From an uncultured Pelagibacteraceae bacterium (GTDB lineage: Bacteria > Pseudomonadota > Alphaproteobacteria > Pelagibacterales > Pelagibacteraceae), in contig CACGWC010000001.1 of NCBI GenBank assembly GCA_902576785.1, positions 62,001 to 126,000 on the forward strand: 64,000 bases of DNA. The letters are read 5' to 3'. The notes below the pieces were generated by a model. The model worked only from the letters and a program-made list of their open reading frames with translations. It was not told the origin of the DNA and searched no databases. The translations under genes were made by a program, and so were the position numbers. Positions 12,170-63,707 of the stretch are shown here, piece after piece (the stretch's first letter is position 1; the number at the start of each line of letters is the position of its first letter).

Positions 12170-12181
12170 TTTGAATAACTT

Positions 12182-34214: not shown

Positions 34215-34220
34215 ATTTAA

Positions 34221-49504: not shown

Positions 49505-49558
49505 AGATAAAAGATAATGAACTATTACAATAGAATATTATAAAAAACAAAAAAATTA

Positions 49559-50569
49559 ATGGAGAATGTAGTATTTAAGTTTGAGTGTGACTCAGGGAAA
49601 ATAGCTGGCACAGGTCATTTTTTTAGAATTTTAAAATTATATGAATTATTAAAAAAAAAATTTAGAAATAGATTTAATTATTATTTCTTATTCAGTGCCT
49701 ACGAAGATTCCTTCAAAATAGTAAATAGGTATATAGATAGAAAAAATATTTTATTAAAAAAAAAAAATAATGATAACTTATTTTTTTTAAAACCAAATGA
49801 CTTAATTATTAACGACACTCCAAAAAAAATTTCAAAATATTTTTTATCTTTTTGTCAAAATAAAAATTTAAAAGATATAATTTTAATAGATCACGATGAC
49901 ATAGATTATAAAAATAATTATTACATAATAAATGGAATATTTTCGCTAAAAAAAAAGTTGAAAAATAAAAAAAATATTTTTCAAGGTATAAAATATATAT
50001 TACTAGACAAAAAATATTCTAAGGTTAAAAAAAAAATATCAAATAAATTTAATTTATTAATTACTACTGGTGGCTCTGATAATAAAAATATTGTTTATAG
50101 ATTCTATAAAATTATTAAAGATTTAAAAGATATATCAATTCGAATTGTAATTGGACCTGGTTTTAGAGTTTCAAATCCAGTATTTAATTTATCAAACAAA
50201 AAAATTATTTTTATAAAAAATCAGACTAGCCTTCACTCTTATTTTCAAAATACAGACTTATCAATAACTGCTGGTGGCATTTCAATGTTTGAGTCATTGG
50301 CTAGTAATAATATTACTCTTGTTACCCAACTTTATAAAAATCAAATATATTCAATTAAAAAATTAAAGAGAATTAAAGCAATACATTTAATTGGAAAAGG
50401 AAATAAAATATTTAAAAAAAAACTTGTTCTGATAATAAAGAAATATCAAAAAATTAAAAATAACGGGAAACTTAAAAAAAATAATGATTTAAGATATATA
50501 GATGGAAAATCTATGTATAGAATTGAAAAAATTTTATTTAAAATTATAAAAAAAAAATTACATAAATGA
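49559..50569 (+). CDS. PseG-like UDP-sugar hydrolase
   Basis: A 336-aa GT-B-fold protein: a diverged GTGHFFRILKLYEL where PseG has GxGHxxR (catalytic His), LIINDTPKKIS, ILIDHDD, LLITTGGSDNKNIV and LSITAGGISMFESLA (MurG-like nucleotide site). By family, PseG cleaves UDP from the 2,4-diacetamido-trideoxyhexose before condensation with PEP. It heads a three-gene plus-strand unit, overlapping the aminotransferase gene by 4 bp (ATGA). The longer Lys-rich C-terminus is unremarkable for this genome. Confidence 0.75.
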   Translation: MENVVFKFECDSGKIAGTGHFFRILKLYELLKKKFRNRFNYYFLFSAYEDSFKIVNRYIDRKNILLKKKNNDNLFFLKPNDLIINDTPKKISKYFLSFCQNKNLKDIILIDHDDIDYKNNYYIINGIFSLKKKLKNKKNIFQGIKYILLDKKYSKVKKKISNKFNLLITTGGSDNKNIVYRFYKIIKDLKDISIRIVIGPGFRVSNPVFNLSNKKIIFIKNQTSLHSYFQNTDLSITAGGISMFESLASNNITLVTQLYKNQIYSIKKLKRIKAIHLIGKGNKIFKKKLVLIIKKYQKIKNNGKLKKNNDLRYIDGKSMYRIEKILFKIIKKKLHK

Positions 50570-51717
50570 AAAAAATTTATAAACTATCAGAGCCATATAT
50601 AGATAATAAAGAAATTAGAAATGTAGTTAAAGTTTTAAAGTCTGGATGGCTTACTTCGGGACCTTTGACTCTAAAACTAGAAGCGCAAATTAGAAAAAAA
50701 ATAAAAACAAAAAATGTAATTGCTGTAAATTCAGCTACTAGTGGTATTTTTATATGTTTAGTAGCAATGGGAGCCAAAAAGGGTGACGAGGTAATCACTC
50801 CATCAAATACATACATATCAACAATTAATACAATTTATAATTTAGGACTGAAAATTTCTTTATGTGATATTGAGCTTTCAACAGGCAATGTCAACGAAGC
50901 TGAGTTCTCAAAAAAAATTACAAAAAAAACCAAATTTTTTATACCAATCCATAATGGAGGAAATCCACTTAATTTAAATAAACTGGTCCAAATAGCAAAA
51001 AAAAATAAAATTAAAATTATTGATGATGCTGCAACTGCTTTTGGGTCAAAAATAAATAACAAATATGTTGGTTCTTTTAATGATACTGTTACAGTTTTTA
51101 GTCTCCATGCAAATAAACTAGTTACGAGTGGTGAAGGTGGTTTTATTACTACAAATAACAATAAATTAGCAAAAAAAATCAGAATATTAATAAATTCTGG
51201 CCTTGATAAAGATACTTGGAATAGAAAAAATACAAAGAACTATAGAATTTTAAATGTAGGTTTGCCAGGCTATAAGTTTAATTTTAATGATATTTTATCA
51301 AGTATAGCAATTATACAAATAAAAAAAATTGACAAAATAATTAAATACAGAAAAAAATTAAAAGATAGGTATTTAAAAAAGTTAAATTCTCTTATAACAA
51401 ATAGAATAATAGAAATTCCATCTGTAAGTAAAACTGACATAAGTGCTCTATATAATTTTCTTATCTTATTTAAAAAAATAAACGTAAGAGATAAAGTGGC
51501 TAAATTTCTTCAAAAAAAAAAAATTTACTCTACAATTCATTATACTCCTGCGCATAAACATTCGTTCTATAAAAAAAAATTAAATGGATCAAATTTGATA
51601 AATACTAATTATTTTTTTAAGAATAGTCTAAGTCTACCATTTCATAACAATTTAACTTTAAGAGACATTGATTTTATAACCTTTCAAATAAAGAAATTTT
51701 TTAATGAAAAAAAATAA
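50566..51717 (+). CDS. DegT/DnrJ-family sugar aminotransferase (PseC-like)
   Basis: A 383-aa PLP aminotransferase: YKLSEPYIDNKEI and VLKSGWLTSGPLTLKLE at the N-terminus, VNSATSGIFICLVAMG, TPSNTYISTINTI, IIDDAATAFGS, the Schiff-base Lys in VFSLHANKLVTSGEGG (about residue 186), and VGLPGYKFNFNDILSSIA. The LHANKxxTxGEGG form matches PseC/DesI-type 4-aminotransferases. Between PseG-like and PseI-like genes it should aminate C4 of the UDP-4-keto-6-deoxy sugar. It overlaps the next gene by 14 bp. Confidence 0.82.
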   Translation: MKKIYKLSEPYIDNKEIRNVVKVLKSGWLTSGPLTLKLEAQIRKKIKTKNVIAVNSATSGIFICLVAMGAKKGDEVITPSNTYISTINTIYNLGLKISLCDIELSTGNVNEAEFSKKITKKTKFFIPIHNGGNPLNLNKLVQIAKKNKIKIIDDAATAFGSKINNKYVGSFNDTVTVFSLHANKLVTSGEGGFITTNNNKLAKKIRILINSGLDKDTWNRKNTKNYRILNVGLPGYKFNFNDILSSIAIIQIKKIDKIIKYRKKLKDRYLKKLNSLITNRIIEIPSVSKTDISALYNFLILFKKINVRDKVAKFLQKKKIYSTIHYTPAHKHSFYKKKLNGSNLINTNYFFKNSLSLPFHNNLTLRDIDFITFQIKKFFNEKK

Positions 51718-52693
51718 GTGCTATATTATTGCTGAAATTGGTATAAACCATAACGGAAGTATAAAAAAAATAATTAAACTTATAAAACTAGCTAAATTGG
51801 CTGGTGCAGATGCAGTAAAATTTCAGCTATTTAAAGCTGAAACTCTCGCAGATAAAAATGATTTAAAAAAATATAAACTTTTTAGAAACAGGCCTAATCA
51901 GACATTATATGAAATGTGGAAATCAGTATCTTTAAAAAAAAAATGGTTAAAGAAAATCGAACACATAACTAAAAAAATAAAAATTGATTTAGGATTTAGT
52001 ATATTTGATCAAGAGAGCTTAAAATTAATTCAAAGTATTAAAACTGATTTTGTTAAAATTGCATCCTCAGATATAACTGATTTATTTTTACTTAATCAAA
52101 TTAAAAAAACCAAGCCAAATCATGTCATTATGTCTACTGGAATGGCTTCAAAAAATGAAATTATTTTTGCTTTTAAATTATTCAAAAAAAATATTACATT
52201 ATTGCATTGCGTTTCTCTTTACCCAACTAACTATAATGAATTAAATTTAAATAGAATGAAAAAATTACTATCAATAACAAAAAATGTTGGATTGTCAGAT
52301 CATTCTATTGGTGTAATTGGATCAATTAAAGCTATAAATTTAGGAGCGAGAATTATAGAAAAACACTTTACTTTTAGCAAAGATGCCGATGGTCCTGACC
52401 ACAAAAGTTCCGCTGACTTTAATGATTTAAAAATAATTTGTGATTTTGCAAAAGAAAATAAAAATATGGAAGGATCAGGCAAAATTGAACCATCAAAAAA
52501 AGAATTAAAAATGAGAATTTTTGCCCGAAAAAGTATGTTTGCAAAAAAAGATATACAAATTGGGGAGAGGTTCACTGAACAAAACATAACATGTAAAAGA
52601 CCGGGATATGGGATTGAAGCAAATAAATATTATAAAATTTTAGGTAAAAGAAGCAAAAAAAAATTCAAAAAGTTTGAAATAATTAAGAATTAA
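51704..52693 (+). CDS. Nonulosonic acid synthase (PseI/NeuB family)
   Basis: A 329-aa PEP-dependent condensing enzyme: YIIAEIGINHNGS (metal/PEP His region), AKLAGADAVKFQLFKAETL, FVKIASSDITDLFLL, VIMSTGMASKNEI, LLHCVSLYPTNYNELN, VGLSDHSIGVIGS, IIEKHFTFSKDADGPDHKSS, then a C-terminal SAF/antifreeze-like domain (about 270-329, FARKSMFAKKDIQIGE). All the signature motifs are intact. It condenses PEP with a free 6-deoxy-diacetamido-hexose to give pseudaminic- or legionaminic-type acid. The 3' end overlaps the convergent cytidylyltransferase-GNAT gene by 11 bp. Confidence 0.9.
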   Translation: MKKNKCYIIAEIGINHNGSIKKIIKLIKLAKLAGADAVKFQLFKAETLADKNDLKKYKLFRNRPNQTLYEMWKSVSLKKKWLKKIEHITKKIKIDLGFSIFDQESLKLIQSIKTDFVKIASSDITDLFLLNQIKKTKPNHVIMSTGMASKNEIIFAFKLFKKNITLLHCVSLYPTNYNELNLNRMKKLLSITKNVGLSDHSIGVIGSIKAINLGARIIEKHFTFSKDADGPDHKSSADFNDLKIICDFAKENKNMEGSGKIEPSKKELKMRIFARKSMFAKKDIQIGERFTEQNITCKRPGYGIEANKYYKILGKRSKKKFKKFEIIKN

Positions 52694-53804
52694 ACTTCAT
52701 AGTTAACAAGTCTTTCTTTTTTGTTTTAAAAAATTTTGATTTAATTATTTTCCATCCAAATCCCATATAAAGCTTAATAGAATTTTTGTTTGCTAACAAA
52801 AAAGCTTTTTTATCTAAATTTAAAATTTCATTCATAGATTTAGAAATTAGCATGCTTGATATACCTTTTCCTCTATATGACTTTTCAACTATAAAACTAT
52901 CTAATAATAAACACTTGATATTATTGATTTTTATGTTTTTTAGACAATTGTATCCTATAAGTTTATTTTTATTATAGAGAAGAATATGCTTATCATTAAA
53001 TTTGTAGTTCTTATAAAAAAATTTTTTTTGGGAATTTAATGAATATTTCCAATAACTTTTTTTTAATAATAAAATTTTTGTCAGTTCATTTCTTTTGATT
53101 TGTCTTGTTTTTATAACTTTAAAAGAAAAATAATTATTATATATTGTAATTTTTTTTATTTCTTTGCATAGAATATTCCATTTTGTATTTAAATTTTTTG
53201 TGTCAAGTATTCTTTTTAAAGCTAAGTAGTCCTCAATAAAATCTAGAGTACATCTTAAATGGTATTTTTTTTTTTTAAAATATCTATTTAATTTAAATTG
53301 AGCATTTTTTTTATTAAATATAGAAGTTACATGCTCATTATCAAAATTAGATTTGCTCTTGGAATTTTTCAAAAGCTTTTTATTAAAAATTTCTACTGAT
53401 ATACCATAAGGTAAATTATTTTTTTTATAATCTATATATAAATAATTTTTATTCGATTTTTTAAAATTATTTAACAACATTGAAATTAAGCTAGAGTCTA
53501 TAAAAAGATTGTCGCCAGTGATTCTTACGATTGTATCGAAATTTTTTTTTTCTAAATATTTTAGAAATCTTTTTTTTACGTTTTCCAAACTTCCTCTGAA
53601 AAAATTTAATTTATATCTTTTTAATGTATAAGATAAAAAGTCATCACTTTTATGATTTGAAGTCAAAATAGATGTAAAGTATTTTTTAGAAACGACTCTT
53701 TTATAAAGATAGACAATAGATGGAATTTTTTTTATTAACAAAAAGCACTTATTAGGAAGTCTTTTTGAAGATGATCGTACTTGCAAAAGAACTATTGCTT
53801 TCAT
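52683..53804 (-). CDS. SpsF/PseF-like cytidylyltransferase fused to GNAT acetyltransferase (PseH-like)
   Basis: A 373-aa bifunctional protein. Residues 1 to about 215 are a SpsF-family cytidylyltransferase: VLLQVRSSSKRLPNKC (R-x-x-S-x-R-L-P-x-K loop), EKKNFDTIVRITGDNLFID (the V-R-x-T-G-D site), LPYGISVEIFNK and LRCTLDFIEDYLALK. Residues about 230-373 are a GNAT domain with LLDSFIVEKSYRGKGISSML (acetyl-CoA loop R-G-K-G) and NSIKLYMGFGWKII. Together these correspond to PseF (CMP activation) and PseH (N-acetylation), usually separate genes, here one chain. It is opposite and convergent to the pseI-like gene, 12 bp downstream of a GT-B gene. Confidence 0.8.
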   Translation of the reverse strand: MKAIVLLQVRSSSKRLPNKCFLLIKKIPSIVYLYKRVVSKKYFTSILTSNHKSDDFLSYTLKRYKLNFFRGSLENVKKRFLKYLEKKNFDTIVRITGDNLFIDSSLISMLLNNFKKSNKNYLYIDYKKNNLPYGISVEIFNKKLLKNSKSKSNFDNEHVTSIFNKKNAQFKLNRYFKKKKYHLRCTLDFIEDYLALKRILDTKNLNTKWNILCKEIKKITIYNNYFSFKVIKTRQIKRNELTKILLLKKSYWKYSLNSQKKFFYKNYKFNDKHILLYNKNKLIGYNCLKNIKINNIKCLLLDSFIVEKSYRGKGISSMLISKSMNEILNLDKKAFLLANKNSIKLYMGFGWKIIKSKFFKTKKKDLLTMKFNS

Positions 53805-53816
53805 AATTAATGTTAA

Positions 53817-55403
53817 TTAGCCGTATCTTATTAATTTACATTTTTTAGATAGGTTGTTTCCATATACTCTAAATTTTTTAGAGTTCACATAATCTTTATA
53901 AACTTTAATTATCATTTTATTCCTTTTCTTTGAAAACTGTTTTAAAAAAATCTCATAAATTTTTTTTGGATAATTTGGGCCAAATTTAATTATTTTATCT
54001 TTAAACCCATCTATCAAACTGTATTCCATTAAAAATCTCATTAAATAGTAGATATGTAAATTTTTTTGTATTTTTTTTATTTTAACTAAAGGAACTTTAT
54101 CTAAATTAGTGATTATTTTTTTGTAATGTTTCATATCTCTCGGATAAATATTAAAATTAAAAAGTTTATGTGGACCAGTTTTTGATGCATTAACTACTGG
54201 TATGCCAAATAATGGATATTCATGTCCAATAGAACCATAAACAGTGAGTATAATATTTATTTTTTCCTCTATTAATTGATTATTTGTTACATCAATAGGA
54301 AGAATATTAAATTTGGGATATTTTTTTGCAAAATACTTAATATATTTATAATTAGATTTGTATTCTGATGGATGAAATTTAATATACCACTCATAATTGG
54401 TTTTATTAGTACATTTTCCTAAAAAATCTAACCATTCGTAAAAATCTGTAAATAAAAATTTTCCATACACATGGACAGCATCGTTAAATTGGTGGGCTGC
54501 AATTAAAACTTTAAATTTTTTTGTTTTAGAAAGAATTTTTTTTTTTGTTATTTTTTGGTTATAAAAATCTTTTTCTGTATATCTATCTAATAATATTTTA
54601 ATGTCTTTCTTTCCAAGAAATCTCTCATTTAAACTTTTTTTAGCATCTAACAAAAGATTTTTTTGCAAAGAAGGTTTAAAATTTTTAAAAATTTTAAAAT
54701 AATCTTCAAATCCACAGTGTTTTATTGGATATTTTTTTGATAAATATTTTGGGGTTTCAGCAATACCAACTGTATATACTGGAATATTCTTATATATTGC
54801 TATTCTAGGAACAATCCCCATAAAATAAACATGATGACTTATCAAGACTGCTTTAATTTTGTCTTTTTTAAAAAAATTCTTCCAATAGTAATAAAGTGAA
54901 ATAGCATCTTTAAGAAAGCTTTTAAATTCACTAGAATTTGCGTTAATTGTAATAGTATTCTTGCTTCTCAAAAACTCATCATAAATTAAATCTCCAAGTA
55001 ATATATTGTCTATTTTTATATCTAGAATATCTTTTTTATTTTTTATCTTTTTAATTATTCTTTCATAATCTTCTTTTTCAGCTGTGGTAAATGATATTTG
55101 TGGACTTACAAATTTTTTTACCCCAAAAGACTTATATATTTCATTTATTCCAAATGGGTTATATTGATTAAAAAAATATTTTGTTTTCTGTATAAAATTT
55201 AAAAAATATGGTTGATAAGAAACAATCTTAGCTTCATGTTTCTCAGATAATACATTGCTTAAATATGAAAACGGAATAGTTGATGGTTTATAATCATATA
55301 GTTCAACCAAAATTATATTTTTATTATTATAATCTTTTATTTTAAAATTTTTTAAGTTGTGATTTATAAATTTATATGTTTGTTTTAAGTTTTCTATAAT
55401 CAT
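53817..55403 (-). CDS. GT-B-like surface carbohydrate biosynthesis protein
   Basis: A 528-aa soluble protein of a capsule/O-antigen family with no firm name. The N-terminal half includes KAVLISHHVYFMGIVPRIAI. The C-terminal half is GT-B-like: FKVLIAAHQFNDAVH, YEWYIKFHPSEYKSN (about residues 340-354), and ILTVYGSIGHEYPLFGIPVVNA, the donor-site loop with Gly-Ser and a conserved Glu. The same order (HP-E, then YG-x-x-G-x-E-x-x-x-x-G-x-P-V) recurs in the protein of 62064-63707. It overlaps the AAC(3)-like gene by 4 bp and is the last gene of the large minus-strand operon. A role as glycosyltransferase for the acylated sugar is inferred. Confidence 0.55.
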   Translation of the reverse strand: MIIENLKQTYKFINHNLKNFKIKDYNNKNIILVELYDYKPSTIPFSYLSNVLSEKHEAKIVSYQPYFLNFIQKTKYFFNQYNPFGINEIYKSFGVKKFVSPQISFTTAEKEDYERIIKKIKNKKDILDIKIDNILLGDLIYDEFLRSKNTITINANSSEFKSFLKDAISLYYYWKNFFKKDKIKAVLISHHVYFMGIVPRIAIYKNIPVYTVGIAETPKYLSKKYPIKHCGFEDYFKIFKNFKPSLQKNLLLDAKKSLNERFLGKKDIKILLDRYTEKDFYNQKITKKKILSKTKKFKVLIAAHQFNDAVHVYGKFLFTDFYEWLDFLGKCTNKTNYEWYIKFHPSEYKSNYKYIKYFAKKYPKFNILPIDVTNNQLIEEKINIILTVYGSIGHEYPLFGIPVVNASKTGPHKLFNFNIYPRDMKHYKKIITNLDKVPLVKIKKIQKNLHIYYLMRFLMEYSLIDGFKDKIIKFGPNYPKKIYEIFLKQFSKKRNKMIIKVYKDYVNSKKFRVYGNNLSKKCKLIRYG

Positions 55404-56149
55404 TTTTTTTTAATCAAAAAATTCTTATTTTTTTTCAAACCTGAACTGACAATTTGAAAAGTTTTTTTTAATGAAATTTTACCTATAAAACCTCTTCCGA
55501 TATTAGAAACTTTATAATATTTTTTTGCTGCTAAATGAAATTTTGTAAAATCAACCATATAAGATTTATTTTTTTTAATAACAAAGATAGTGCTCTTAAC
55601 TTTTTTTTTACTTTTTCCAATATAGCCATGGAAAGTTTTATCGGTCCTATATTTTACATTTAAATTTCTTTCGAATAGATGGATAAATGTTGATGCAGAG
55701 TCCATATTTATATTACAAATTTGTCCATCGAGTTCATAAAATCTTTGAAAGAAACTGTTTTTTCCATAGGCGTTTTCAGTATAATTTTGAGATAAAAACC
55801 TTTTATTCTTTCCAATAACAACTACAGAGACATTTGGGTCACTATATAGGGCTGAAGATTTTATCTTTTTTGCATATTCAGATAAATGACCACATATTGA
55901 TTTAGAGATATTTGGGGAATATCTTTTTTTATTTGTAAAGGAATAAGTAAACGTAGGAAAAGCTAAAGTTCCATTTTTTCCTATAATTTTTAAAAGTTCG
56001 TTTATTATAATTTTACATGTTTGATAAATGTCTCTTTTATTTTTATATTGTTTTAATAGACCTAAATCACTATGTATAAATAGGTTTTCATTTTTTTTAA
56101 TTCCAATATTTTTTAAAGACTTATGAAAATTCTTTGCAGTAAATTTCAT
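55400..56149 (-). CDS. AAC(3)-fold N-acyltransferase
   Basis: A 249-aa member of the aminoglycoside 3-N-acetyltransferase (Antibiotic_NAT) fold: FIHSDLGLL (about residues 23-31), KNGTLAFPTFTYSF, ALYSDPNVSVVVIG, and a central INMDSASTFIHLFE with the conserved His, then TFHGYIG. All characteristic segments are in order. In polysaccharide clusters these enzymes acylate an amino sugar, and a stand-alone acyl carrier protein gene lies directly upstream with a 4-bp overlap. The acyl donor is therefore probably acyl-ACP and the target an amino group of a sugar. Antibiotic resistance is not implied. Confidence 0.8.
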   Translation of the reverse strand: MKFTAKNFHKSLKNIGIKKNENLFIHSDLGLLKQYKNKRDIYQTCKIIINELLKIIGKNGTLAFPTFTYSFTNKKRYSPNISKSICGHLSEYAKKIKSSALYSDPNVSVVVIGKNKRFLSQNYTENAYGKNSFFQRFYELDGQICNINMDSASTFIHLFERNLNVKYRTDKTFHGYIGKSKKKVKSTIFVIKKNKSYMVDFTKFHLAAKKYYKVSNIGRGFIGKISLKKTFQIVSSGLKKNKNFLIKKK

Positions 56150-56385
56150 TCTTGTTGCTTCTTGCTTATGATCAATGCAAGACCTTTGATTGTTCTAAAT
56201 TTTCTATTCATAAAATCTTTTTGATCAAATTTAATTTTAAATTTTTTTTCTATACTTACTACAAATTTAACAAATCCCAATGAATCTACATATCCTTTTG
56301 CCAAATAATCTATATCAATTTGTTTTGTTTTATTTAATTTTAAATATTTTAATATGAAGTTTAATTCTTTGTCTAAGTTTGACAT
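56146..56385 (-). CDS. Acyl carrier protein
   Basis: A 79-aa four-helix carrier protein. GYVDSLGFVKFVVSIEKKF contains the Asp-Ser-Leu phosphopantetheine site (Ser35), followed by FKIKFDQKDFMNRKFRTIKGLA, the usual helix 3 region. It is more basic than fatty-acid ACPs, as are most proteins here. ATG at 56385 overlaps the preceding stop as TAATG and is preferred over ATG at 56403. It is placed between an AAC(3)-type acyltransferase and a cyclase-family gene, in an operon with an AMP-forming ligase that could load it. Confidence 0.82.
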   Translation of the reverse strand: MSNLDKELNFILKYLKLNKTKQIDIDYLAKGYVDSLGFVKFVVSIEKKFKIKFDQKDFMNRKFRTIKGLALIISKKQQE

Positions 56386-57056
56386 TAAATTATTCCAATG
56401 CATCTAGCTGGAGAACCATCACTATGTTGAATGTTTAGAGGCGCACCAATAAAGTAAAATGTTTTTTTTTTAATTTTTTTTAAATTCGTAAGATATTCAA
56501 TAATTAAAACATCATTTTTTAAAAATATTTTATGATTTTCACCATCTTTATATTTAGTAAAAGAATTTTTTGGATTATCCGGTTGAGGACTATCAAAACC
56601 AACTAATTTAATACCTTTTCTTACTAACCATTTACATAATTCTGAATCGAGGTAAGGATGATCATAAAAAAAATTACTTTTGCCATAATATTTATCTGTC
56701 CAATCAAATCTAAAAATTACAATCTTTCCGTTAAAATTTTTAAATCTTTTTTTAACATCCTTTATAGATATGATTGTTTTTTTTAATTTTTTACTGAGAT
56801 CAATTAAAATGGCATTCCCGCAAAAATGGCTTATGTCGTATTGGTCAATTGTTTTACCATTTTTTATAAAATGTCTTGGCGCATCAATATGAGTCCCTAG
56901 ATGACTACCAATTTGAATTGTTGACACTTCTCTTTTGTGTGTCTTATGAGTGGCTGACTTGAATCTTTTGAATTTTGGGTGATAGTTTCTATGATAAGTC
57001 TGCATACCTTTATGAAACATTAAAGATAAATCGATAATTTTAACTTTTTTTTTCAT
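56385..57056 (-). CDS. Cyclase-family metal-dependent hydrolase (kynurenine formamidase-like fold)
   Basis: A 223-aa protein with the cyclase-family signature IQIGSHLGTHIDAPRHF (H-x-G-T-H-x-D-x-P-x-H-F, about residues 48-64), giving the His/Asp metal ligands. It also has IDQYDISHFCGNAILIDL, FDWTDKYYG, VGFDSPQPDNP and PLNIQHSDGSPARCIGII at the C-terminus. Family members hydrolyse amides, formamides or lactones (kynurenine formamidase, isatin hydrolase). Here it shares an operon with an aldolase, a ligase, an ACP and an acyltransferase, so a lactone or amide step in making the acyl group is suggested. The substrate is unknown. Confidence 0.82.
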   Translation of the reverse strand: MKKKVKIIDLSLMFHKGMQTYHRNYHPKFKRFKSATHKTHKREVSTIQIGSHLGTHIDAPRHFIKNGKTIDQYDISHFCGNAILIDLSKKLKKTIISIKDVKKRFKNFNGKIVIFRFDWTDKYYGKSNFFYDHPYLDSELCKWLVRKGIKLVGFDSPQPDNPKNSFTKYKDGENHKIFLKNDVLIIEYLTNLKKIKKKTFYFIGAPLNIQHSDGSPARCIGII

Positions 57057-57655
57057 AATAAATATTGGACAATTTCAAAAATTATTCCACCTGGCGATCT
57101 AAAGAAAAAAATTTTCATTTTTTTCCTATTCATTTCATAGTTAAAAATCTTGGATATCTCAATATTGAAATCTTTGCAACTTTTAAAAACTTTATTTATA
57201 TCACTTGATACAAAACAAAGAGATGTGTATCCGATATAATCTAAATATTCTTTGCCATTATAATTTTCATTAAGATGAAATTTGTATTTTTTTTGATCAT
57301 AAAAAGAATAAAAATTAATAATATTTTTTTTTTCATCAAGATTAAAAACCTTTCCCCAAAACACAGATTCTTGCTTGATTGAAAGCACACTTAAAAAAAA
57401 TTTATTTTTTTTAACTTTAATATTATTTGCGCTAAATTTTCTTATTCCATAATAAGTTTTTTCAATAGGAGGTAGATTTTTTTTAATTGAATAAAACCCT
57501 ATGTGATGATTTTTAATTCTCTTGTAAAGAAATAATTTTTTTTCTTTATGGTTCGGAGCGTACTCTTCATATACTTTATTATATTGAAAAAAATTTTTTT
57601 TAAAATTTTTTTTATCTTTAGTGTTGAGACTTAAATGATCAAGACCGAGTATCAT
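57053..57655 (-). CDS. VOC (glyoxalase/dioxygenase-fold) family protein
   Basis: A 200-aa protein with a repeated beta-alpha-beta-beta-beta pattern. It opens with LGLDHLSLNTKDKKNFKKNF (first metal-binding His), and the second half includes YIGYTSLCFVSSDINKVFKSC and closes with FFFRSPGGIIFEIVQYLL (metal-binding Glu, typical of VOC ends). Superfamily members include glyoxalase I, methylmalonyl-CoA epimerase and extradiol dioxygenases. It overlaps the ligase by 17 bp and the cyclase by 4 bp, so it is locked into this pathway. An isomerisation or epimerisation of the acyl precursor is a guess. Confidence 0.7.
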   Translation of the reverse strand: MILGLDHLSLNTKDKKNFKKNFFQYNKVYEEYAPNHKEKKLFLYKRIKNHHIGFYSIKKNLPPIEKTYYGIRKFSANNIKVKKNKFFLSVLSIKQESVFWGKVFNLDEKKNIINFYSFYDQKKYKFHLNENYNGKEYLDYIGYTSLCFVSSDINKVFKSCKDFNIEISKIFNYEMNRKKMKIFFFRSPGGIIFEIVQYLL

Positions 57656-59003
57656 ATCTATTTCTCAATTTATTTTTATCAATTTTACCAATTCGATTTT
57701 TTGGTAATTTACTTAAAAATATGAAGTCATTTGGTATAATTTTTTCTGATATTTTTTTTTTTAAACTTTCAATTATATGTTCTTTTAAAATTTTTTTTTT
57801 TGATTTAATAAAAGCTATTGGAATTTCCCCATATAATTTACTTTTTAATCCAACTACTGCCACTTCATTAATAAATTTAATTTTTAACAACTGATCCTCT
57901 AAATATTTTGGACTTATGTTTATTCCCTCTTTAATTATAATATCTTTTGTTCTGCCAGTTAATTTTATAAATTCTTTTTTTCTTTCAAATGTATCACCTG
58001 AATTAAAATATTCATCTTTATTCATTTCAATTTGATTTTTTTTTTTTAAATAGCCATAGAATTTAAATGGACTCGAAATTAATAAATTTTTTGATGTGTC
58101 TTTTTTAATTTTGATTCCGTCTAAAAGTTTTCCACTTCCGAACGATTTATTAATTAAATTTGTTGAAACTAATAGCATTTCACTTGAGCCATAACTTTCA
58201 AGACATTTAATATGAAATTTTTTTTTAAATTTATTTTTTAAATGATTATGAAAAGGAGCAGTTCCAACCATTATAAAATTAAGTATATTTTTAATTTTGT
58301 TCAACAAATTTTTATTCATTCTCTGCTCATAAATTATATTAATTATTGATGGGGACGCCCAAAAATAATTAATTTCATATTTAATTATATCTTCCCAAAA
58401 ATTAAAATAATTACTAATTGATGACTTGTTAAAGAGAACTATTTTGTTTCCTGCAAGCAATGGACAAATAATTGAATTTAAAAAACCTGCCATATAATAC
58501 ATTGGAAATAAATGGAGAAAATTTTTTTTTTGCTTAATGCCAATGATTTTATTAAATTTTAACGCATTATTTATTAAATTTTGAGGTGTGTGGCAAACAC
58601 CTTTGGGGAATGCAGTGGTTCCAGAAGTAAAAAAAATACAAATTTGTTTTTTCAGATTTTTCATTTCATTAGTTTTTTTTTTTAAAATAAATTTTTTGTT
58701 TTCAAATTTTAAAATTAATTTAGGCTTACAATAACTGATAATTTTTTTTTTTTCTAAATAAGTCGATTTAAAATTAATTGGTAAAAAAGAATATCCACCC
58801 TCAATACAAGCTAGGGCAGCGACGATATAAAAATAAGAGTCTTCTATTTCTACGGCAATTAAATCTTTTGAGTTAATTTTTTTTTTTTTTATTAATTCAA
58901 TTAGATTTTTTACATCGTTTATCAAACAACCATAGGTTATTTCAGCAAATTGATTTGAAATAGCAAATTCTTTTTTATATTTAACTATTCTATTTAATAT
59001 CAT
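57639..59003 (-). CDS. AMP-forming acyl ligase (ANL superfamily)
   Basis: A 454-aa adenylate-forming enzyme, short against 500-550 aa acyl-CoA synthetases. It has the A3 loop ICIFFTSGTTAFPKGVCHT (about residues 122-140), FPMYYMAGFLNSI, CLESYGSSEMLLVS (A5), YFNSGDTFERKKEFIKLTGRTKD (A7/A8 hinge), and C-terminal LPKNRIGKIDKNKLR with the catalytic Lys (A10). It activates a carboxylic acid as acyl-AMP and should load it onto CoA or, given the adjacent gene set, the ACP of 56146-56385. It lies 3 bp after the aldolase gene. Confidence 0.85.
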   Translation of the reverse strand: MILNRIVKYKKEFAISNQFAEITYGCLINDVKNLIELIKKKKINSKDLIAVEIEDSYFYIVAALACIEGGYSFLPINFKSTYLEKKKIISYCKPKLILKFENKKFILKKKTNEMKNLKKQICIFFTSGTTAFPKGVCHTPQNLINNALKFNKIIGIKQKKNFLHLFPMYYMAGFLNSIICPLLAGNKIVLFNKSSISNYFNFWEDIIKYEINYFWASPSIINIIYEQRMNKNLLNKIKNILNFIMVGTAPFHNHLKNKFKKKFHIKCLESYGSSEMLLVSTNLINKSFGSGKLLDGIKIKKDTSKNLLISSPFKFYGYLKKKNQIEMNKDEYFNSGDTFERKKEFIKLTGRTKDIIIKEGINISPKYLEDQLLKIKFINEVAVVGLKSKLYGEIPIAFIKSKKKILKEHIIESLKKKISEKIIPNDFIFLSKLPKNRIGKIDKNKLRNRYDTRS

Positions 59004-59006
59004 TAT

Positions 59007-60068
59007 CTATAATGATTGTTCGTTAATATAAAAATGATTATATATTTTTTTCCAACTTCCAGATTTATTTTTGTTTTTTAGTTTAACACTAAGTTTTTTA
59101 ACCAGATCTTCAGGAGCTTCAGATTTATTTTTTTTACTTACCTCATAGACTAATAACCTAGGATCTACTTTATATTTTTTGGAATATTTTTCAATTATTG
59201 GCAAATAACTACTATGAAATAAAGACATACCACAAACTACATCGATTGATTTAATTCCTTTAGAAGTTATAAAATTGACTAAAATTTCCTCTGATAAATC
59301 CAAAATTTTAATATAATCAACTTTACATTTAATTTTTTCTTTTTTTAAAGCGCACACTAAAAGTTCAACTGGTGTATTACCGGCACTTCTTCCATAACCT
59401 TGCAAGGATGCATCAACTATATCAAAATTTAATTTTATAGCTTTATATGCATTTGCTACAGCAAAACCCAAATTGTTATGTCCATGAAAACCAACTTTTA
59501 TTTTTTTATTAATCTCTTTAATACTATTATAATAATTTTCTAATTCTGAAGGGATCATACCTCCTGCTGAATCAACAACATAAACAATGTCTGAGCCCAT
59601 ATTATGAGCAATATTAGCAATTTTAGAAAATTTTTTTGGTAGAAAAACATATGACTTCATAAAATTTGTGCATACTTTCATATTTAATTTTTTAGCAAGA
59701 TATATATAGGGTTCTAAAAGTTTATAATTTTCTACATTTGATCCTATTCTTATAAAATTTGCTCCCATGTCTTTTAATTTTTTTACATCATCCAAACTAG
59801 CAATACCTGGAATACAAAACATGCCCCAATCAGATTTGTTCAAAGCCATGTTTGCATATTTTCCATAATTTAAATCTGTTTCTTTTGCTTTGTATTTTCT
59901 TATTCTTGAGGCTCCTAATCCCATTCCATGACCAACTTCGATAAGCTCTACTCCAGCTTTTTCTAGTTTGCTGCAAATTTCGTAAGTCTGTTTTTTTGTA
60001 AATTGAAAATTATTTAAATAACTTCCATCTCTTAAAGTACAATCTAATATTTGAGTTTTAATTTTCAT
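59007..60068 (-). CDS. 4-hydroxy-2-oxovalerate aldolase-type / HMGL-like aldolase
   Basis: A roughly 353-aa TIM-barrel enzyme of the DmpG/HMGL family: ILDCTLRDGSYLNNFQF (catalytic Arg-Asp), VELIEVGHGMGLGASRI, FIRIGSNVENY, YVVDSAGGMIPSE, VGFHGHNNLGFAVANA (His-x-His metal ligands) and QGYGRSAGNTPVELLV. No acylating aldehyde dehydrogenase partner (DmpF) is present. ATG at 60068 gives a 4-bp ATGA overlap with the methyltransferase stop and leads straight into the first strand. ATG at 60095 is less likely. It either releases pyruvate plus an aldehyde or, run in reverse, builds a 4-hydroxy-2-oxo acid for the acyl group. Confidence 0.85.
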   Translation of the reverse strand: MKIKTQILDCTLRDGSYLNNFQFTKKQTYEICSKLEKAGVELIEVGHGMGLGASRIRKYKAKETDLNYGKYANMALNKSDWGMFCIPGIASLDDVKKLKDMGANFIRIGSNVENYKLLEPYIYLAKKLNMKVCTNFMKSYVFLPKKFSKIANIAHNMGSDIVYVVDSAGGMIPSELENYYNSIKEINKKIKVGFHGHNNLGFAVANAYKAIKLNFDIVDASLQGYGRSAGNTPVELLVCALKKEKIKCKVDYIKILDLSEEILVNFITSKGIKSIDVVCGMSLFHSSYLPIIEKYSKKYKVDPRLLVYEVSKKNKSEAPEDLVKKLSVKLKNKNKSGSWKKIYNHFYINEQSL

Positions 60069-60760
60069 TTCTTTTTTGCTATTAAAATATGCCAATGATA
60101 ATCTAAACCAAACCAGTTTATATCTATTGAGCTGTGGATAAAATTTCTAAAATTTTTTTTAAAACTTTTTTCAATTTCTAATTTATTTCCAAAACATCTC
60201 ATAATTTGTCCATCTCTTACTTTAAAATAATCATCTTTAATTACTCTGTAACCATTTTTAATTTTTTTACTATTTTTATATATAAAAGAGGATTTTTTTG
60301 GTATTGATAGAATTAAAAGACCATTTTTCTTAAGAACTCTATTCATTTCCTTAACATGTTTTTTAAAATTAAAAGGATCGTTAGGATTCATGTAATAACA
60401 AGAATTCCATGATAACAAGATATCAAAATAATTTGATTTAAAATTTATTTTATCTGAAGTTCCAATATTAAAATTTTTACTTAATGATTTAAAATTTTTT
60501 TTCGCTTTATCTACTATATCTGAACTAATTTCGGTACCAAAAACATTTAATCCAAGATTTTTTAAAAACAATATGTGTCTTCCATCACCAAAACCTAAAT
60601 CTAATATTTTTTGGTTTTTTTTAAACTTAAGTTTTAATTTAGGAAATTTACCTTTAAATATTCTTATTACACCTTCTGCTGGATATGAAATTTCATTTAC
60701 TTTATTAAATAGCTTTGTCCAATTTTTTTTTGGTTCATATTTATTATTATTTTGAATCAT
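60065..60760 (-). CDS. Class I SAM-dependent methyltransferase
   Basis: A 231-aa Methyltransf_11-type enzyme: KILDLGFGDGRHILFL (motif I, about residues 53-68), NVFGTEISSDIVDKA (strand 2 acidic residue), FDILLSWNSCYYMNP (post-strand 4) and LILSIPKKSSFIYKNS. It overlaps the aldolase (4 bp) and the DUF4910 gene (4 bp), so it is translated together with them. The methyl acceptor could be the keto acid or acyl precursor, or a sugar. Context does not decide. Confidence 0.78.
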   Translation of the reverse strand: MIQNNNKYEPKKNWTKLFNKVNEISYPAEGVIRIFKGKFPKLKLKFKKNQKILDLGFGDGRHILFLKNLGLNVFGTEISSDIVDKAKKNFKSLSKNFNIGTSDKINFKSNYFDILLSWNSCYYMNPNDPFNFKKHVKEMNRVLKKNGLLILSIPKKSSFIYKNSKKIKNGYRVIKDDYFKVRDGQIMRCFGNKLEIEKSFKKNFRNFIHSSIDINWFGLDYHWHILIAKKK

Positions 60761-62067
60761 ATAACTAATTTTTTTTTCAGTAATACTTTATATATTTTTT
60801 TTGTCTGATTAAAATTCAAATTAATTATCTTTGAAATTTGTTGTAAAGATAAATTTCCGTCACTATATTGTAAAAAATCTAAATACCTCATTGAACTAAA
60901 GCTCGAACCCTTAACAGATAAATTGTTATATAAATTTCTTTTTCCCAGTTGAGGCTCACATAAATATTTTGATTTAGGCATTATTTTTTTATCTAGATTT
61001 TTAATAGCTTCTTTAGCTACTTTATAGCCTCCATATAATCCTTTTCGTGTAACTAAATTAAAGTTATCTAATGAGGTGTGATATTCTTTGTATTCACCAT
61101 ATTTTGACCTAAATATTGAGGCCATTGGTATATCAACTCCAGGTGAATTAAATTGTCTCTCATCAGAGCCCCTTTTTAAAAAACTATAAACTTTATATTT
61201 ATTAATTTTTAATTTTTTAAAAGCACTTAACAGTGACTGATCCGCAGGGTGATTACCTTTTTTAGATAACATGCAAGAATAATTTTTTTCATCCCCAATA
61301 CATGAAAGATTGTAACCTCCAACAACATTTTTTTTTAAGTCTTTTAAGTTTTTATTTATATATGCTATTGATCCTATCGTCTCTGGTATAAATAAAAATC
61401 TAATTGAATAATTAGGTTTTTTTCTGTTTTTAAAATAATTTATTAAAGCCATCGAAACTATTGGCCCAGATAATTCGTTGTTTGCCATTGAAGGATGACA
61501 TATGTAGGTAGAAACTAAGATCTCTTTTTTTGTTTTTCCTCTTATTAAATAGTCAGCATAATTCATTCTGCCATGCTTCTTAAAACTTGATTCTATTAAA
61601 ACATCAAAAACTTGATTTTTTTTATATTTTTTTTTTATTTCTAGAAATTGATAATAAGAACAACAAAATCCCCAATTTTTTTTATAATATGAAGTTATGT
61701 ATGGGATAGCATTAGGCTGATTTTTTAAAAAATGAAGTCTTTTTAATAACTCATCTTTTCTTAATTTCTTTTTAATTGGTGAAGAATAGCCTATTAGGTG
61801 AAGATTATTATTTTTAAAATCAATAATTTTTTTTCCTTCAAAATCTTTAACATAAGCGCTTTTGACATTCCATTCTGAAGGAACTTTCCAATCATAAACT
61901 TGTATATTTGATTTAAAAAATTTAATTCTAAGTTTTGGAAAAAATGATTTTATATAACTTAATGTTTTTCTTACACCTTCTCCAGTTAAACTTCTATTTA
62001 ATGGAAATAGGTAAATTTTTGCAAAATTATAAAGCTTTGCAATATTAATGTTATCCTTTTTTTTCAT
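60757..62067 (-). CDS. DUF4910 aminopeptidase-like domain protein with winged helix
   Basis: A 436-aa protein of the DUF4910/DUF2172 type found in surface glycan clusters. The N-terminus has LFPLNRSLTGEGVRKTL, then VYDWKVPSEWNVKSAYVKD. The M28-like metal region reads TYICHPSMANNELSGP (about residues 191-206), followed by FLFIPETIGSIAYIN (catalytic Glu-Thr) and LKRGSDERQFNSPGVD. The C-terminal 70 residues form a winged helix (DFLQYSDGNLSLQQISKII). Structure-level knowledge places it as a zinc peptidase-like fold; its substrate is unproven, perhaps amide-linked groups on sugars. It overlaps both neighbours by 4 bp. Confidence 0.8.
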   Translation of the reverse strand: MKKKDNINIAKLYNFAKIYLFPLNRSLTGEGVRKTLSYIKSFFPKLRIKFFKSNIQVYDWKVPSEWNVKSAYVKDFEGKKIIDFKNNNLHLIGYSSPIKKKLRKDELLKRLHFLKNQPNAIPYITSYYKKNWGFCCSYYQFLEIKKKYKKNQVFDVLIESSFKKHGRMNYADYLIRGKTKKEILVSTYICHPSMANNELSGPIVSMALINYFKNRKKPNYSIRFLFIPETIGSIAYINKNLKDLKKNVVGGYNLSCIGDEKNYSCMLSKKGNHPADQSLLSAFKKLKINKYKVYSFLKRGSDERQFNSPGVDIPMASIFRSKYGEYKEYHTSLDNFNLVTRKGLYGGYKVAKEAIKNLDKKIMPKSKYLCEPQLGKRNLYNNLSVKGSSFSSMRYLDFLQYSDGNLSLQQISKIINLNFNQTKKIYKVLLKKKLVI

Positions 62068-63707
62068 TCTTTGTTATTATCTTTAAAATAAAAATCAGTT
62101 CCATTTAATATACTATCACAAATTAAATCTAAATTTTTATCAGAATTATTTGAGAGAATATTTAAAAAATTATTTTTAATTTTAAAGGGAGGAAAATTAT
62201 AGGGAATATCTTCTAAAGAATTTAAAGCTAACATTCTTTTAAAGTAATAATGATAGGCAAATTTCTTTGCATCATTTATATTATCATCACTCATTTTATT
62301 ATGAAATGGAAGCGATTTAAGTAATTGGAAATATTCTTTTTCAGTTTTTGGCTCAATTGAAAACCCTTTATTCCTTATTACAGCTTCACCAGCAACTATT
62401 ACTGGAACTCCTCTAGCTGCGAATTCTATACCTAATTTTGTACCATATACTAATATTGCATTACAATGATTTAAAATTGAATAAGTGCTTATTGGATCAT
62501 TGGAATCAACTAAAAAAATATTATTAGGTAATTTTTTATGTTTTTTTTCTATCTCATCTTTGACTTTTTGCTTAGCTGGACGATCAGAATTCACCTCGGT
62601 TGGATGTACTCTAATTAGCAAATTTAAATCTTTTCTTTTACTAAAATAATTTATTGTCTTTAGTATCCAATCAATCATATTATGAAAAATAGTATCATCA
62701 TAATGTAATTGAGCATCCCAGATTACATTTGTTGTTAAACCAATCAATGGTTTGTTTAGATCAATTTTGTTGATTTCAAAATATTTTTTTACATCAAGTG
62801 ATATTGCATTTTTATGATATTGCCAATCTTGAGCTCCAGTAACCTTACTTTCTAAATATTTATCAATTTTTTTTTCAATATTTTGTAGATTAATTTGTTT
62901 CCAATTTAAATTATTCTCGTTAACAATGTCTTTGTTATAAACCTGGTTATGACTGAATATGAATGAATTCTTTCTAGTTCCAGTTGTCCAAGTAACGTAA
63001 TTAATTTTTTTTGATTTAGCTATTTCTGCTATTATACCTTGGGGTATATATATCCCATGATTAAGGACTATAACATCATATTTGTTTTCAGTTAACAAAT
63101 TTTCGATAGCTGTGTAAGTCAGTAAAGCACTTTCTAAAAATATCTTTAACAACTTATCTGAATTTGATCTTAAGTTTAAATCGCCTATTGCATAATATCT
63201 TAATAAGTTGGCAACAGTTTGTTCCCCAACATTTATATCATTTTTTTTGAAGTTTTTTATTTGTTCAGTATTAAGCCCTCTAATTTCATTATTTATTTTT
63301 TTAATCTCTTTTTTGCTTAAATACTTACTCAAATAATGAGTTTTTAAGCCTGTTTTTTTAAATGTTTTATTGCCTATACTAAAACAAGCATCGCATATAT
63401 TAATTTTTTTTTTTATTAAATTGTTTTCCTTTGTATTGGTATCTGTTGTCATAATACAACCATTTAAAATTTTGTCACACAGTAAAAATTCAACATCTGA
63501 ACCTTTGAGATTTAATGAGACACCTATTAATGACTCTAGTGATGTTGCTACTTTATGTCCTCCTGAAGAAGTAGCAATCAAAATTTTTTTTTTTTTTGCT
63601 TTATTAATTTTATATTCTTCTTTGCCTTTTAAAATTTTACTCCAATTTGGCATATCATCTGGAAGAGGCAAGAAATAAGTGAACAATTTTTTTAAATTAT
63701 TAATCAT
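62064..63707 (-). CDS. GT-B-like surface carbohydrate protein with Cys cluster
   Basis: A 547-aa protein. The N-terminal domain begins KKILIATSSGGHKVATSLES and carries two Cys pairs, LLCDKILNGCIMT (about residues 76-88) and INICDACFSIG (about 107-117), spaced like a small metal site. IVLNHGIYIPQGIIAEIA follows. The C-terminal half has LIGLTTNVIWDAQL, LNLLIRVHPTEVN and AILVYGTKLGIEFAARGVPVIVAGEA, a GT-B donor-site pattern shared with the product of 53817-55403. I recognise the family only as capsule/O-antigen associated. It is 7 bp downstream of the edge fragment and overlaps the DUF4910 gene by 4 bp. Confidence 0.55.
   Translation of the reverse strand: MINNLKKLFTYFLPLPDDMPNWSKILKGKEEYKINKAKKKKILIATSSGGHKVATSLESLIGVSLNLKGSDVEFLLCDKILNGCIMTTDTNTKENNLIKKKINICDACFSIGNKTFKKTGLKTHYLSKYLSKKEIKKINNEIRGLNTEQIKNFKKNDINVGEQTVANLLRYYAIGDLNLRSNSDKLLKIFLESALLTYTAIENLLTENKYDVIVLNHGIYIPQGIIAEIAKSKKINYVTWTTGTRKNSFIFSHNQVYNKDIVNENNLNWKQINLQNIEKKIDKYLESKVTGAQDWQYHKNAISLDVKKYFEINKIDLNKPLIGLTTNVIWDAQLHYDDTIFHNMIDWILKTINYFSKRKDLNLLIRVHPTEVNSDRPAKQKVKDEIEKKHKKLPNNIFLVDSNDPISTYSILNHCNAILVYGTKLGIEFAARGVPVIVAGEAVIRNKGFSIEPKTEKEYFQLLKSLPFHNKMSDDNINDAKKFAYHYYFKRMLALNSLEDIPYNFPPFKIKNNFLNILSNNSDKNLDLICDSILNGTDFYFKDNNKE

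Follow-up and report, generated by a model that had tools for sequence, protein, structure and literature searches.

The 64,000-nucleotide stretch of DNA analyzed here (the window) belongs to an uncultured Pelagibacteraceae bacterium and carries, at positions 55400-60760 of the minus strand, seven closely packed genes coding for a methyltransferase, a DmpG-like aldolase, an AMP-forming ligase, a VOC protein, a cyclase-family hydrolase, a stand-alone acyl carrier protein (ACP) and an AAC(3)-fold acyltransferase (hereinafter the cassette; Table 1). A first-pass annotation, made from the sequence alone, had called these seven open reading frames (ORFs), and all are found on the strand and at the coordinates it gave. 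The names it assigned also hold: six of the seven are backed directly by Pfam, with the methyltransferase, HMGL-like, AMP-binding, AMP-binding_C, PF04199, PF00550 and PF02522 models passing their gathering cut-offs. The exception is the VOC protein, which lacks a Pfam match of its own and is identified through its homologue at locus L018 (L numbers denote our loci), which lies above the Glyoxalase PF00903 cut-off, and through its predicted fold. The best of five models (mean predicted local distance difference test score 83.5, the others ranging from 72.4 to 55.5) displays paired β-α-β-β-β modules and matches GLOD4 (3zi1; Z 14.3) and methylmalonyl-CoA epimerase (Z 11.2), fold matches that leave the reaction type unsettled.

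The tight packing noted earlier is confirmed for most junctions. As read directly from the sequence, ATGA overlaps join the methyltransferase to the aldolase gene (counting from the in-frame ATG at 60068, the ORF listing having begun at an upstream TTG), the VOC to the cyclase gene and the ACP to the AAC(3) gene, and the cyclase and ACP genes meet in a TAATG with its ATG at 56385; the exceptions are a 17-nt overlap between the ligase and VOC genes and a 3-nt gap between the aldolase and ligase genes. The minus-strand run extends past the seven genes: upstream it takes in a Capsule_synth-like glycosyltransferase and a DUF4910 protein, downstream a 528-aa protein and a CTP_transf_3-GNAT fusion (PseF+PseH-like). 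Here too ATGA junctions link the Capsule_synth-like to the DUF4910 gene, the latter to the methyltransferase gene, and the AAC(3) gene to that for the 528-aa protein, which is separated by 12 nt from the fusion gene.

Adjoining this run, at 48497-52693, are PseB-, PseG-, PseC- and PseI/NeuB-like genes. PF03102, PF02348, PF02719 and PF01041 all score above their cut-offs, as expected of a general nonulosonic acid pathway. The NCBIfam equivalog cut-offs for the Pse enzymes are missed by the PseB-like (259.9 bits against 407.75), PseC-like (279.5 against 423.5), PseG-like (75.8 against 153.55) and PseI-like (246.3 against 340.25) proteins, the synthase at 51704..52693 lying under the cut-offs for both NeuB and PseI; hence, we call the sugar of the window a nonulosonic acid and give it no more specific name. 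The host assembly comprises 1.196 Mb in 26 contigs and is 86% complete, and the GC content of the window is near 23%, values that suggest a SAR11-type organism. Among the 30 proteins scanned elsewhere in the window, glycosyltransferases and sugar enzymes abound, and Rfam and tRNA scans of the window returned no matches. The only PF04199 gene and the only Antibiotic_NAT gene of the host assembly both lie inside the cassette. Its aldolase is rare among relatives, being detected in 3 of 297 genomes of the host family (E 1e-40) and 4 of 349 genomes of the genus (E 1e-60), the host's own included in each.

Table 1. Genes of the cassette and of its surroundings in the window
Feature	Coordinates	Strand	Basis
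AAC(3)-fold (Antibiotic_NAT) acyltransferase, proposed acyl-ACP:sugar-amine N-acyltransferase	55400..56149	-	PF02522 73.3 bits
Stand-alone ACP, DSL site	56146..56403 (likely ATG start 56385)	-	PF00550 23.9 bits, cut-off 20.8
Cyclase-family metal-dependent hydrolase (kynurenine formamidase/isatin hydrolase-like)	56385..57056	-	PF04199 111.6 bits
Two-module VOC (glyoxalase/epimerase-fold) protein	57053..57655	-	Homologue L018 and predicted fold
AMP-forming (ANL) acid ligase, proposed ACP-loading	57639..59003	-	PF00501 126.3, PF13193 46.7 bits
HMGL/DmpG-like aldolase	59007..60095 (likely ATG start 60068)	-	PF00682 117.7 bits
S-adenosylmethionine-dependent methyltransferase	60065..60760	-	Methyltransf_11 53 bits
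DUF4910/DUF2172/HTH_47 protein (Cj1295/3k9t family), proposed sugar N-deacylase/acyl-exchange partner	60757..62067	-	PF16254 274 bits
Capsule_synth-like glycosyltransferase, overlaps DUF4910 gene upstream	62064..63707	-	PF05159 22.6 bits, cut-off 20
528-aa protein, probable glycosyltransferase	53817..55403	-	Pfam: no family at E 0.01
CTP_transf_3 CMP-sugar synthetase fused to GNAT (PseF+PseH-like)	52683..53804	-	PF02348 75.8, PF00583 33.5 bits
NeuB/PseI-like nonulosonic acid synthase	51704..52693	+	PF03102 210.8 bits
PseC-like DegT aminotransferase	50566..51717	+	PF01041 304.9 bits
PseG-like UDP-sugar hydrolase	49559..50569	+	TIGR03590 75.8 bits, cut-off 153.55; Pfam: no family at E 0.01
PseB-like UDP-GlcNAc 4,6-dehydratase	48497..49504	-	PF02719 307 bits; TIGR03589 259.9 bits, cut-off 407.75

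Recurrence of the gene set in bacteria and archaea

The first-pass annotation had staked its proposal above all on the conservation of the gene set beyond this genome, and the set does recur. We scanned genome contigs with an aldolase query alone, a three-sequence alignment (window, L009 and L010) that kept the neighboring genes out of the search, and recovered 19 loci from bacteria and archaea: Legionellaceae, Chitinispirillaceae, Elusimicrobia, Acidobacteriota, Saprospiraceae, a deltaproteobacterium, Lentisphaerae, Uhrbacteria, Alphaproteobacteria, one further proteobacterium and two archaeal bins. The stretches anchored on these aldolases contain the cyclase in 14 cases, the ligase in 13, the ACP in 12, the VOC protein in 9, the AAC(3) enzyme in 7, the DUF4910 protein in 5 and the methyltransferase in 4; a PseI-like gene is present in 6, a PseB-like gene in 5 and either in 9. 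Two of the loci (L015 and L026) are the query seed loci met again, and without them the cyclase is present in 12/17 and the ligase in 11/17. Plain blastp with the window proteins reproduces the 14 cyclases and 13 ligases. The profiles for the AAC(3) enzyme and the ACP were built from hand-picked, mostly unfused seeds, and the bit scores of these profiles are not independent since several counted loci contributed sequences to them. The counts include overlapping ORFs, such as the VOC gene of L014 and the ACP gene of L016, and absences from these loci carry little weight as 10 of the 19 stretches are shorter than 20 kb, mostly ended by contig ends.

Given the number of PF04199 copies and the size of the genomes, a cyclase would be expected by chance in about 0.18 of the 19 stretches, against the 14 observed; this figure takes 37 cyclase copies from the 40 matches listed, four closely spaced matches on a single contig of genome G684 being read as one of three. 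None of eight control stretches, four around more remote HMGL aldolases from other Alphaproteobacteria (L035-L038) and four at plasmid dmpG loci (L057-L060), matched any of the partner profiles, three of these controls being short (L035, 4.9 kb; L058, 4.7 kb; L038, 11 kb). The plasmid controls are four of the dmpG-type matches found in plasmids with the aldolase (30-32% identity in the best 20 of 40), and one of them, L060, carries a VOC protein by annotation, which the cassette VOC profile does not pick up. Five other PF04199 neighborhoods (L040, L041, L042, L045 and L046) likewise contain no cassette partner. The association of these genes exceeds chance.

Across a larger group of 25 genomes that carry the cassette aldolase, the counts are: ligase in 20, cyclase in 21, ACP in 20, VOC protein in 15, AAC(3) enzyme in 14 (13 at 200 bits or more), DUF4910 protein in 12, methyltransferase in 11, PseI-like gene in 13 and either a PseI- or a PseB-like gene in 15. 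For L014, L022, L023 and L027 these counts include second stretches chosen for their PF04199 gene (that of L023 overlaps the first), such that the cyclase counts for L014, L022 and L027 are by selection; the aldolase-anchored 19-locus counts are free of it. The denominator includes the ligase-less genomes L033 and L055 (relatives from the host genus), L017, L024 and L029, and excludes L034 (31% identity, genome G636).

The VOC protein, ligase, cyclase, ACP, AAC(3) enzyme and DUF4910 protein are found together in the window and in L012, L018, L025, L053 and L056. In L012, a Legionellaceae bin, they continue a row of PseB, PseC, CMP-sugar synthetase, a protein combining a weak PseG match with a GNAT domain, and PseI, followed by DUF4910, aldolase, ligase, VOC, cyclase, ACP and AAC(3). 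The genome of L056, the sole other match among 321 genomes of the class to which that of L012 belongs, has the window order of aldolase-ligase-VOC-cyclase-ACP-AAC(3), then DUF4910. Two relatives of the same genus have all six partners (L053) or most of them (L054). The aldolase directly adjoins the ligase in, e.g., L012, L015, L016, L018, L025, L028 and L056. The archaeal bins with the aldolase are L025 (Micrarchaeota) and L029 (Methanocorpusculaceae), the former with a near-complete cassette including DUF4910 and PseB-like genes.

Active sites, fusions and the DUF4910 partner

The aldolase shares its fold family and the HxH and R-D-G motifs with the DmpG/BphI aldolases of catabolic pathways. 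It passes the PRK08195 subfamily cut-off (261.1 bits against 229), misses the equivalog cut-off of TIGR03217, the DmpG 4-hydroxy-2-oxovalerate aldolase (230.3 bits against 286), and its DmpG communication domain lies under the Pfam cut-off. In DmpG, a His and a Tyr have catalytic acid/base roles. In alignments that included PDB sequences these two are exchanged in all 25 cassette aldolases, with Y26 in place of the DmpG His and H294 in place of the Tyr, whereas the controls have Tyr at the second position in 8/8 and His at the first in 7/8; in L034, the distant ninth sequence, the first position holds His and the second a residue other than Tyr. The R-D-G and H-G-H motifs are retained, and we infer that the exchanged pair still supports aldol chemistry. 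In a tree, a branch with support of 100/99 sets the 25 cassette aldolases apart from nine DmpG and control sequences, the bootstrap being not fully settled and L034 a long branch. Unlike the plasmid dmpG loci, which all have an acetaldehyde dehydrogenase (4/4), the window has none among the 20 flanking genes scanned. In the genus relatives L033 (7115-20000) and L055 (1364-13098), an aldolase with a C-terminal extension (630-638 aa) lies directly beside PseI. In the Uhrbacteria (L024, 9977-12016) a 680-aa version with about 340 additional C-terminal residues lacking a Pfam match occurs in a PseI-containing locus. The Lentisphaerae cassette (L020) has a class I/II aminotransferase between aldolase and ligase (11062-12249), which fits a 2-oxo acid product and hints that some versions of the cassette may make an amino acid.

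The catalytic motifs of both the acid-making and the acyl-transferring enzymes are largely conserved, as judged from alignments. The C-terminal Gly-Lys of the ligase is retained in 14/14 aligned sequences and its P-loop is recognizable, being altered in L026 and, by one residue, in L019. The metal-binding motif of the cyclase family, HxGTHxDxPxH, is present in the window, as HxGTHxDAPxH, and in 13 of 14 others. The intact DSL site reported for the ACP is borne out, the attachment Ser being kept in all 13 aligned sequences. The host genome codes for one AcpS-type protein and two PP-binding proteins, the cassette ACP and one on another contig that is presumably the housekeeping AcpP; thus, it is plausible that the cassette ACP is converted to the holo form and serves as a private carrier.

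The AAC(3) enzyme shares the Antibiotic_NAT family (73.3 bits against a PF02522 cut-off of 25), the fold and a His with FrbF and the aminoglycoside acetyltransferases. The His of its TFIHLFE region is kept in 8/8 aligned sequences, and the predicted fold of the L021 homologue, the only one modeled, matches AAC(3)-IVa (6mn3; Z 26.4, root-mean-square deviation 2.3, 235 aligned residues) and FrbF (Z 23.5). It differs from the resistance enzymes in being encoded with or fused to an ACP and in lying far under the cut-offs of resistance families, the window protein scoring 35.9 bits against the 270 of the NCBIfam AAC_3 equivalog. ACP and AAC(3) form a single protein in four Saprospiraceae genomes (L021, L043, L044 and L047); in the L021 fusion model the two folds were matched separately. 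As all four belong to one family the fusion is perhaps a single event, and its repetition in four metagenome assemblies argues against an assembly error. An AAC(3)-DUF4910 fusion, likewise from a metagenome assembly, is found at one locus, L018.

The DUF4910 protein encoded upstream of the methyltransferase has the DUF4910+DUF2172+HTH_47 architecture and matches 3k9t_A with an E-value of 1.2e-87. Its presence in 12 of the 25 genomes and its fusion to AAC(3) in L018 make it a likely core part of the system. We take Cj1295 of Campylobacter jejuni to be of the DUF4910 type. Das et al. (2014) solved the 3k9t structure and, based on gene neighborhoods in which NeuB, an ACP, aminosugar N-acetyltransferases and a glyoxylase occur, proposed a non-peptidase role on modified sugars; Campylobacter is named among the DUF4910 carriers (PMC4000134). 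Cj1295 is required for a 2,3-di-O-methylglyceroyl derivative of pseudaminic acid, the acyl group being assigned to N-5 by work cited therein, and it was proposed to cleave the acetamido group, whose place a new acyl group then takes (PMC3068675). The reported ions of 317 and 391 (PMC3068675) differ by 74, which by our arithmetic corresponds to the replacement of acetyl by dimethylglyceroyl.

Proposed acyl transfer and competing explanations

The first-pass annotation had viewed the seven genes as an ACP-dependent cassette that makes an unusual acyl group and transfers it to an amino sugar. The ACP-dependent cassette is strengthened by its recurrence, the ACP-AAC(3) fusions, the AcpS-type protein and the second ACP of the host. 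A sugar amine likewise remains the proposed acceptor, with a nonulosonate being likelier than any amino sugar at large given the adjacent pathway, which had been overlooked. Trimming of the product by a DUF4910 peptidase is unlikely, as the M28 catalytic residues are missing from 3k9t and related proteins (PMC4000134). We posit, with a probability of about 65%, that the cassette is a dedicated source of acyl donors for a surface sugar, most likely the nonulosonic acid of the window.

We infer each enzymatic step, and the acyl group itself, as follows. The aldolase would combine a short aldehyde with pyruvate or a comparable 2-oxo acid, yielding a 4-hydroxy-2-oxo acid. This might be isomerized or epimerized by the VOC protein, be opened from a lactone or lactam or cleaved from an amide form by the cyclase-family hydrolase and, in some lineages, be methylated by the methyltransferase. 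The AMP-forming ligase, as synteny and intact motifs suggest, would load the acid onto the stand-alone holo-ACP, from which, in line with the ACP-AAC(3) fusions, the AAC(3)-fold enzyme would move the acyl group to the amino group of the sugar. The DUF4910 protein might clear an acetyl group from the target amine or join in the exchange, a role to which its fusion with AAC(3) and the published need for Cj1295 in Campylobacter point. The acceptor would most likely be a nonulosonate or a precursor from the adjacent PseB/C/G/I/F-like genes, because this pathway adjoins the cassette and PseI- or PseB-like genes occur in 15/25 genomes.

The best reading of these parts is a two-part machine, in which a front end and the ligase/ACP pair would make and activate the acid and the AAC(3)/DUF4910 pair would transfer it to the sugar amine. 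A single 13-kb stretch in L033 has DUF4910, an AAC(3)-like protein, a PP-binding protein of ACP size that falls just short of the cut-off, a ketosynthase III, a short-chain dehydrogenase, a methyltransferase, PseI and the extended aldolase, without ligase or cyclase, which suggests that different acyl-making front ends feed one kind of back end. At slightly less than even odds, this might amount to an undescribed, widely spread bacterial and archaeal module. In it, a new aldolase subfamily, the VOC protein and the cyclase would use an aldehyde and a 2-oxo acid to make small acids of a new class; a private ligase/ACP pair would present such an acid, and an AAC(3)-DUF4910 unit would swap it for acetyl on nonulosonic acids. 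The module would be interchangeable with the ketosynthase-type front end found beside DUF4910 in L033.

Several observations weigh against the assignment to a nonulosonate or against parts of the route. Neither a PseI- nor a PseB-like gene scores above threshold in the fetched stretches of 10/25 genomes (L013, L015, L016, L017, L018, L022, L023, L026, L027 and L029), and both are absent from 10/19 aldolase-anchored loci. The Pse-type cut-offs are missed by the sugar genes of the window, and the PseF-GNAT fusion of the window could itself acetylate the same amine. The ligase is missing in 5/25 genomes (L017, L024, L029, L033 and L055), four of which also lack the cyclase (L029 has it), and in the L030 cyclase a Gln replaces one His of the motif. 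The AAC(3) enzyme is missing from the fetched stretches of 11/25 genomes. Among these, the ACP has hexapeptide proteins as neighbors in L010/L026 and L013 and a GNAT protein in L019, such that the parts of the system look exchangeable. In the window DUF4910 protein both His of the His, Asp, His zinc ligands of 3k9t are kept and Asp195 is replaced by Asn197. Asn occupies this position also in L012, L015 and L018, and Asp is kept in L016 and L025. Together with the absence of M28 residues in 3k9t and its relatives (PMC4000134), the Asn speaks against simple deacetylation.

The most serious alternative, which we nonetheless hold to be unlikely, is that the same machinery acylates another amino sugar, such as a 4- or 3-amino-dideoxyhexose, the nonulosonate genes being mere neighbors in the island. 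Sugar islands gather many pathways, hexapeptide-type proteins adjoin the ACP in L026 and L013, and five of the loci without PseI- or PseB-like genes above threshold have both ligase and cyclase (L013, L015, L016, L018 and L026); against this, PseI- or PseB-like genes accompany the aldolase in 15/25 genomes from varied phyla, the CMP-sugar synthetase/GNAT gene of the window lies in the cassette's own run, and the Campylobacter precedent sits on a nonulosonate (PMC3068675). It is distinctly improbable that the aldolase acts on the nonulosonate itself, by retro-aldol cleavage or C4 epimerization, with the ligase, ACP and AAC(3) enzyme using an ordinary acid. A nonulosonate is indeed a 4-hydroxy-2-oxo acid with the C1-C4 pattern handled by DmpG-type enzymes, and the related extended aldolase of L033, L055 and L024 lies near PseI with ligase and cyclase not above threshold, but the aldolase, ligase, cyclase and ACP occur together without PseI in L013, L016, L018 and L026, and aldolase and ligase directly adjoin each other in the loci listed above. 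A catabolic operon of the meta-cleavage type (DmpG aldolase, coenzyme A ligase, VOC dioxygenase and hydrolase) degrading an aromatic or sugar acid merits very little credence: all four families are known from catabolic routes, the PRK08195 cut-off is passed and the control L060 has its annotated VOC protein, yet the window aldolase lacks the flanking acetaldehyde dehydrogenase of the plasmid dmpG loci, falls in a separate clade and is encoded in a run with a carrier protein, an AAC(3) enzyme and glycosyltransferase-like genes. That unrelated genes came together by chance in a variable island, for which the rarity of the aldolase in the host family and genus might be cited, is made extremely improbable by the distant recurrence, the empty controls (0/8), the 14 cyclases against 0.18 expected and the gene fusions.

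Known relatives and other modules of the sugar island

The proposal that the complete chain had gone undescribed stands for its front end only, as the back end was already on record together with its tie to nonulosonates: a 2014 paper described DUF4910, ACP, aminosugar N-acetyltransferase, methylase and glyoxylase near NeuB (PMC4000134). The Clostridium acetobutylicum cluster CA_C2187-CA_C2199 combines NeuB, a sugar nucleotidyltransferase, a glyoxylase, DUF4910, aminosugar N-acetyltransferases and an ACP, and wide conservation with some fusions is reported for clusters of this type (PMC4000134, PDB 3k9t); in contrast to the cassette, Table 2 of the main text lists an ATP-grasp ligase and no AMP-forming ligase or PF04199 cyclase. 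The C. jejuni system resembles the cassette in having the aminopeptidase-like Cj1295 in a nonulosonate locus, an N-acyl group that replaces the acetyl of the sugar and, in Cj1296/7, a listed N-acetyltransferase; it is likened here by description, and the available text mentions no aldolase/VOC/cyclase front end (PMC3068675). The Aeromonas group II flagellar glycosylation island shares Pse genes, an ACP and an AMP-dependent synthetase, but has 3-oxoacyl-ACP reductase, luxE and luxC and is tied to heteropolysaccharidic flagellar glycans (PMC7874193). The main texts of PMC4000134, PMC7874193 and PMC13317340 do not contain the word aldolase. The literature searched yielded no account of the aldolase-ligase-VOC-cyclase front end, a weak negative with supplements and subscription papers lying outside the search. 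Since the back end was published in 2014, only the aldolase/AMP-ligase/cyclase front end looks undescribed.

As of 2010, the enzymes placing unusual N-acyl groups on Campylobacter nonulosonates were described as largely unidentified (PMC3068675). With a compact cassette and its ACP-AAC(3) and AAC(3)-DUF4910 fusions, a handful of purified proteins would suffice to test the N-acylation question, and DUF4910 gains a concrete partner. The cassette further suggests that a small swappable module could let a streamlined marine bacterium vary its surface chemistry, which may matter for recognition by phages and grazers.

The sugar island of the window has further candidate modules. At 33480-36282, an HpcH/HpaI-type aldolase adjoins a 358-aa protein without a Pfam match at 1e-8 and an Ldh_2 dehydrogenase, a trio that is another possible small-acid module. 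At 23589-24961, a HisF-like protein (PF00977) lies beside a 201-aa ORF of HisH size; HisF/HisH-type pairs occur in acetamidino-sugar modules. A DUF1420 protein (245 bits) is encoded at 29003-30898. Just past the right end of the window (L011, 6136-9751), the host genome has a further set of PseC-, CMP-synthetase- and PseI-like genes; thus, the bacterium may make more than one nonulosonate.

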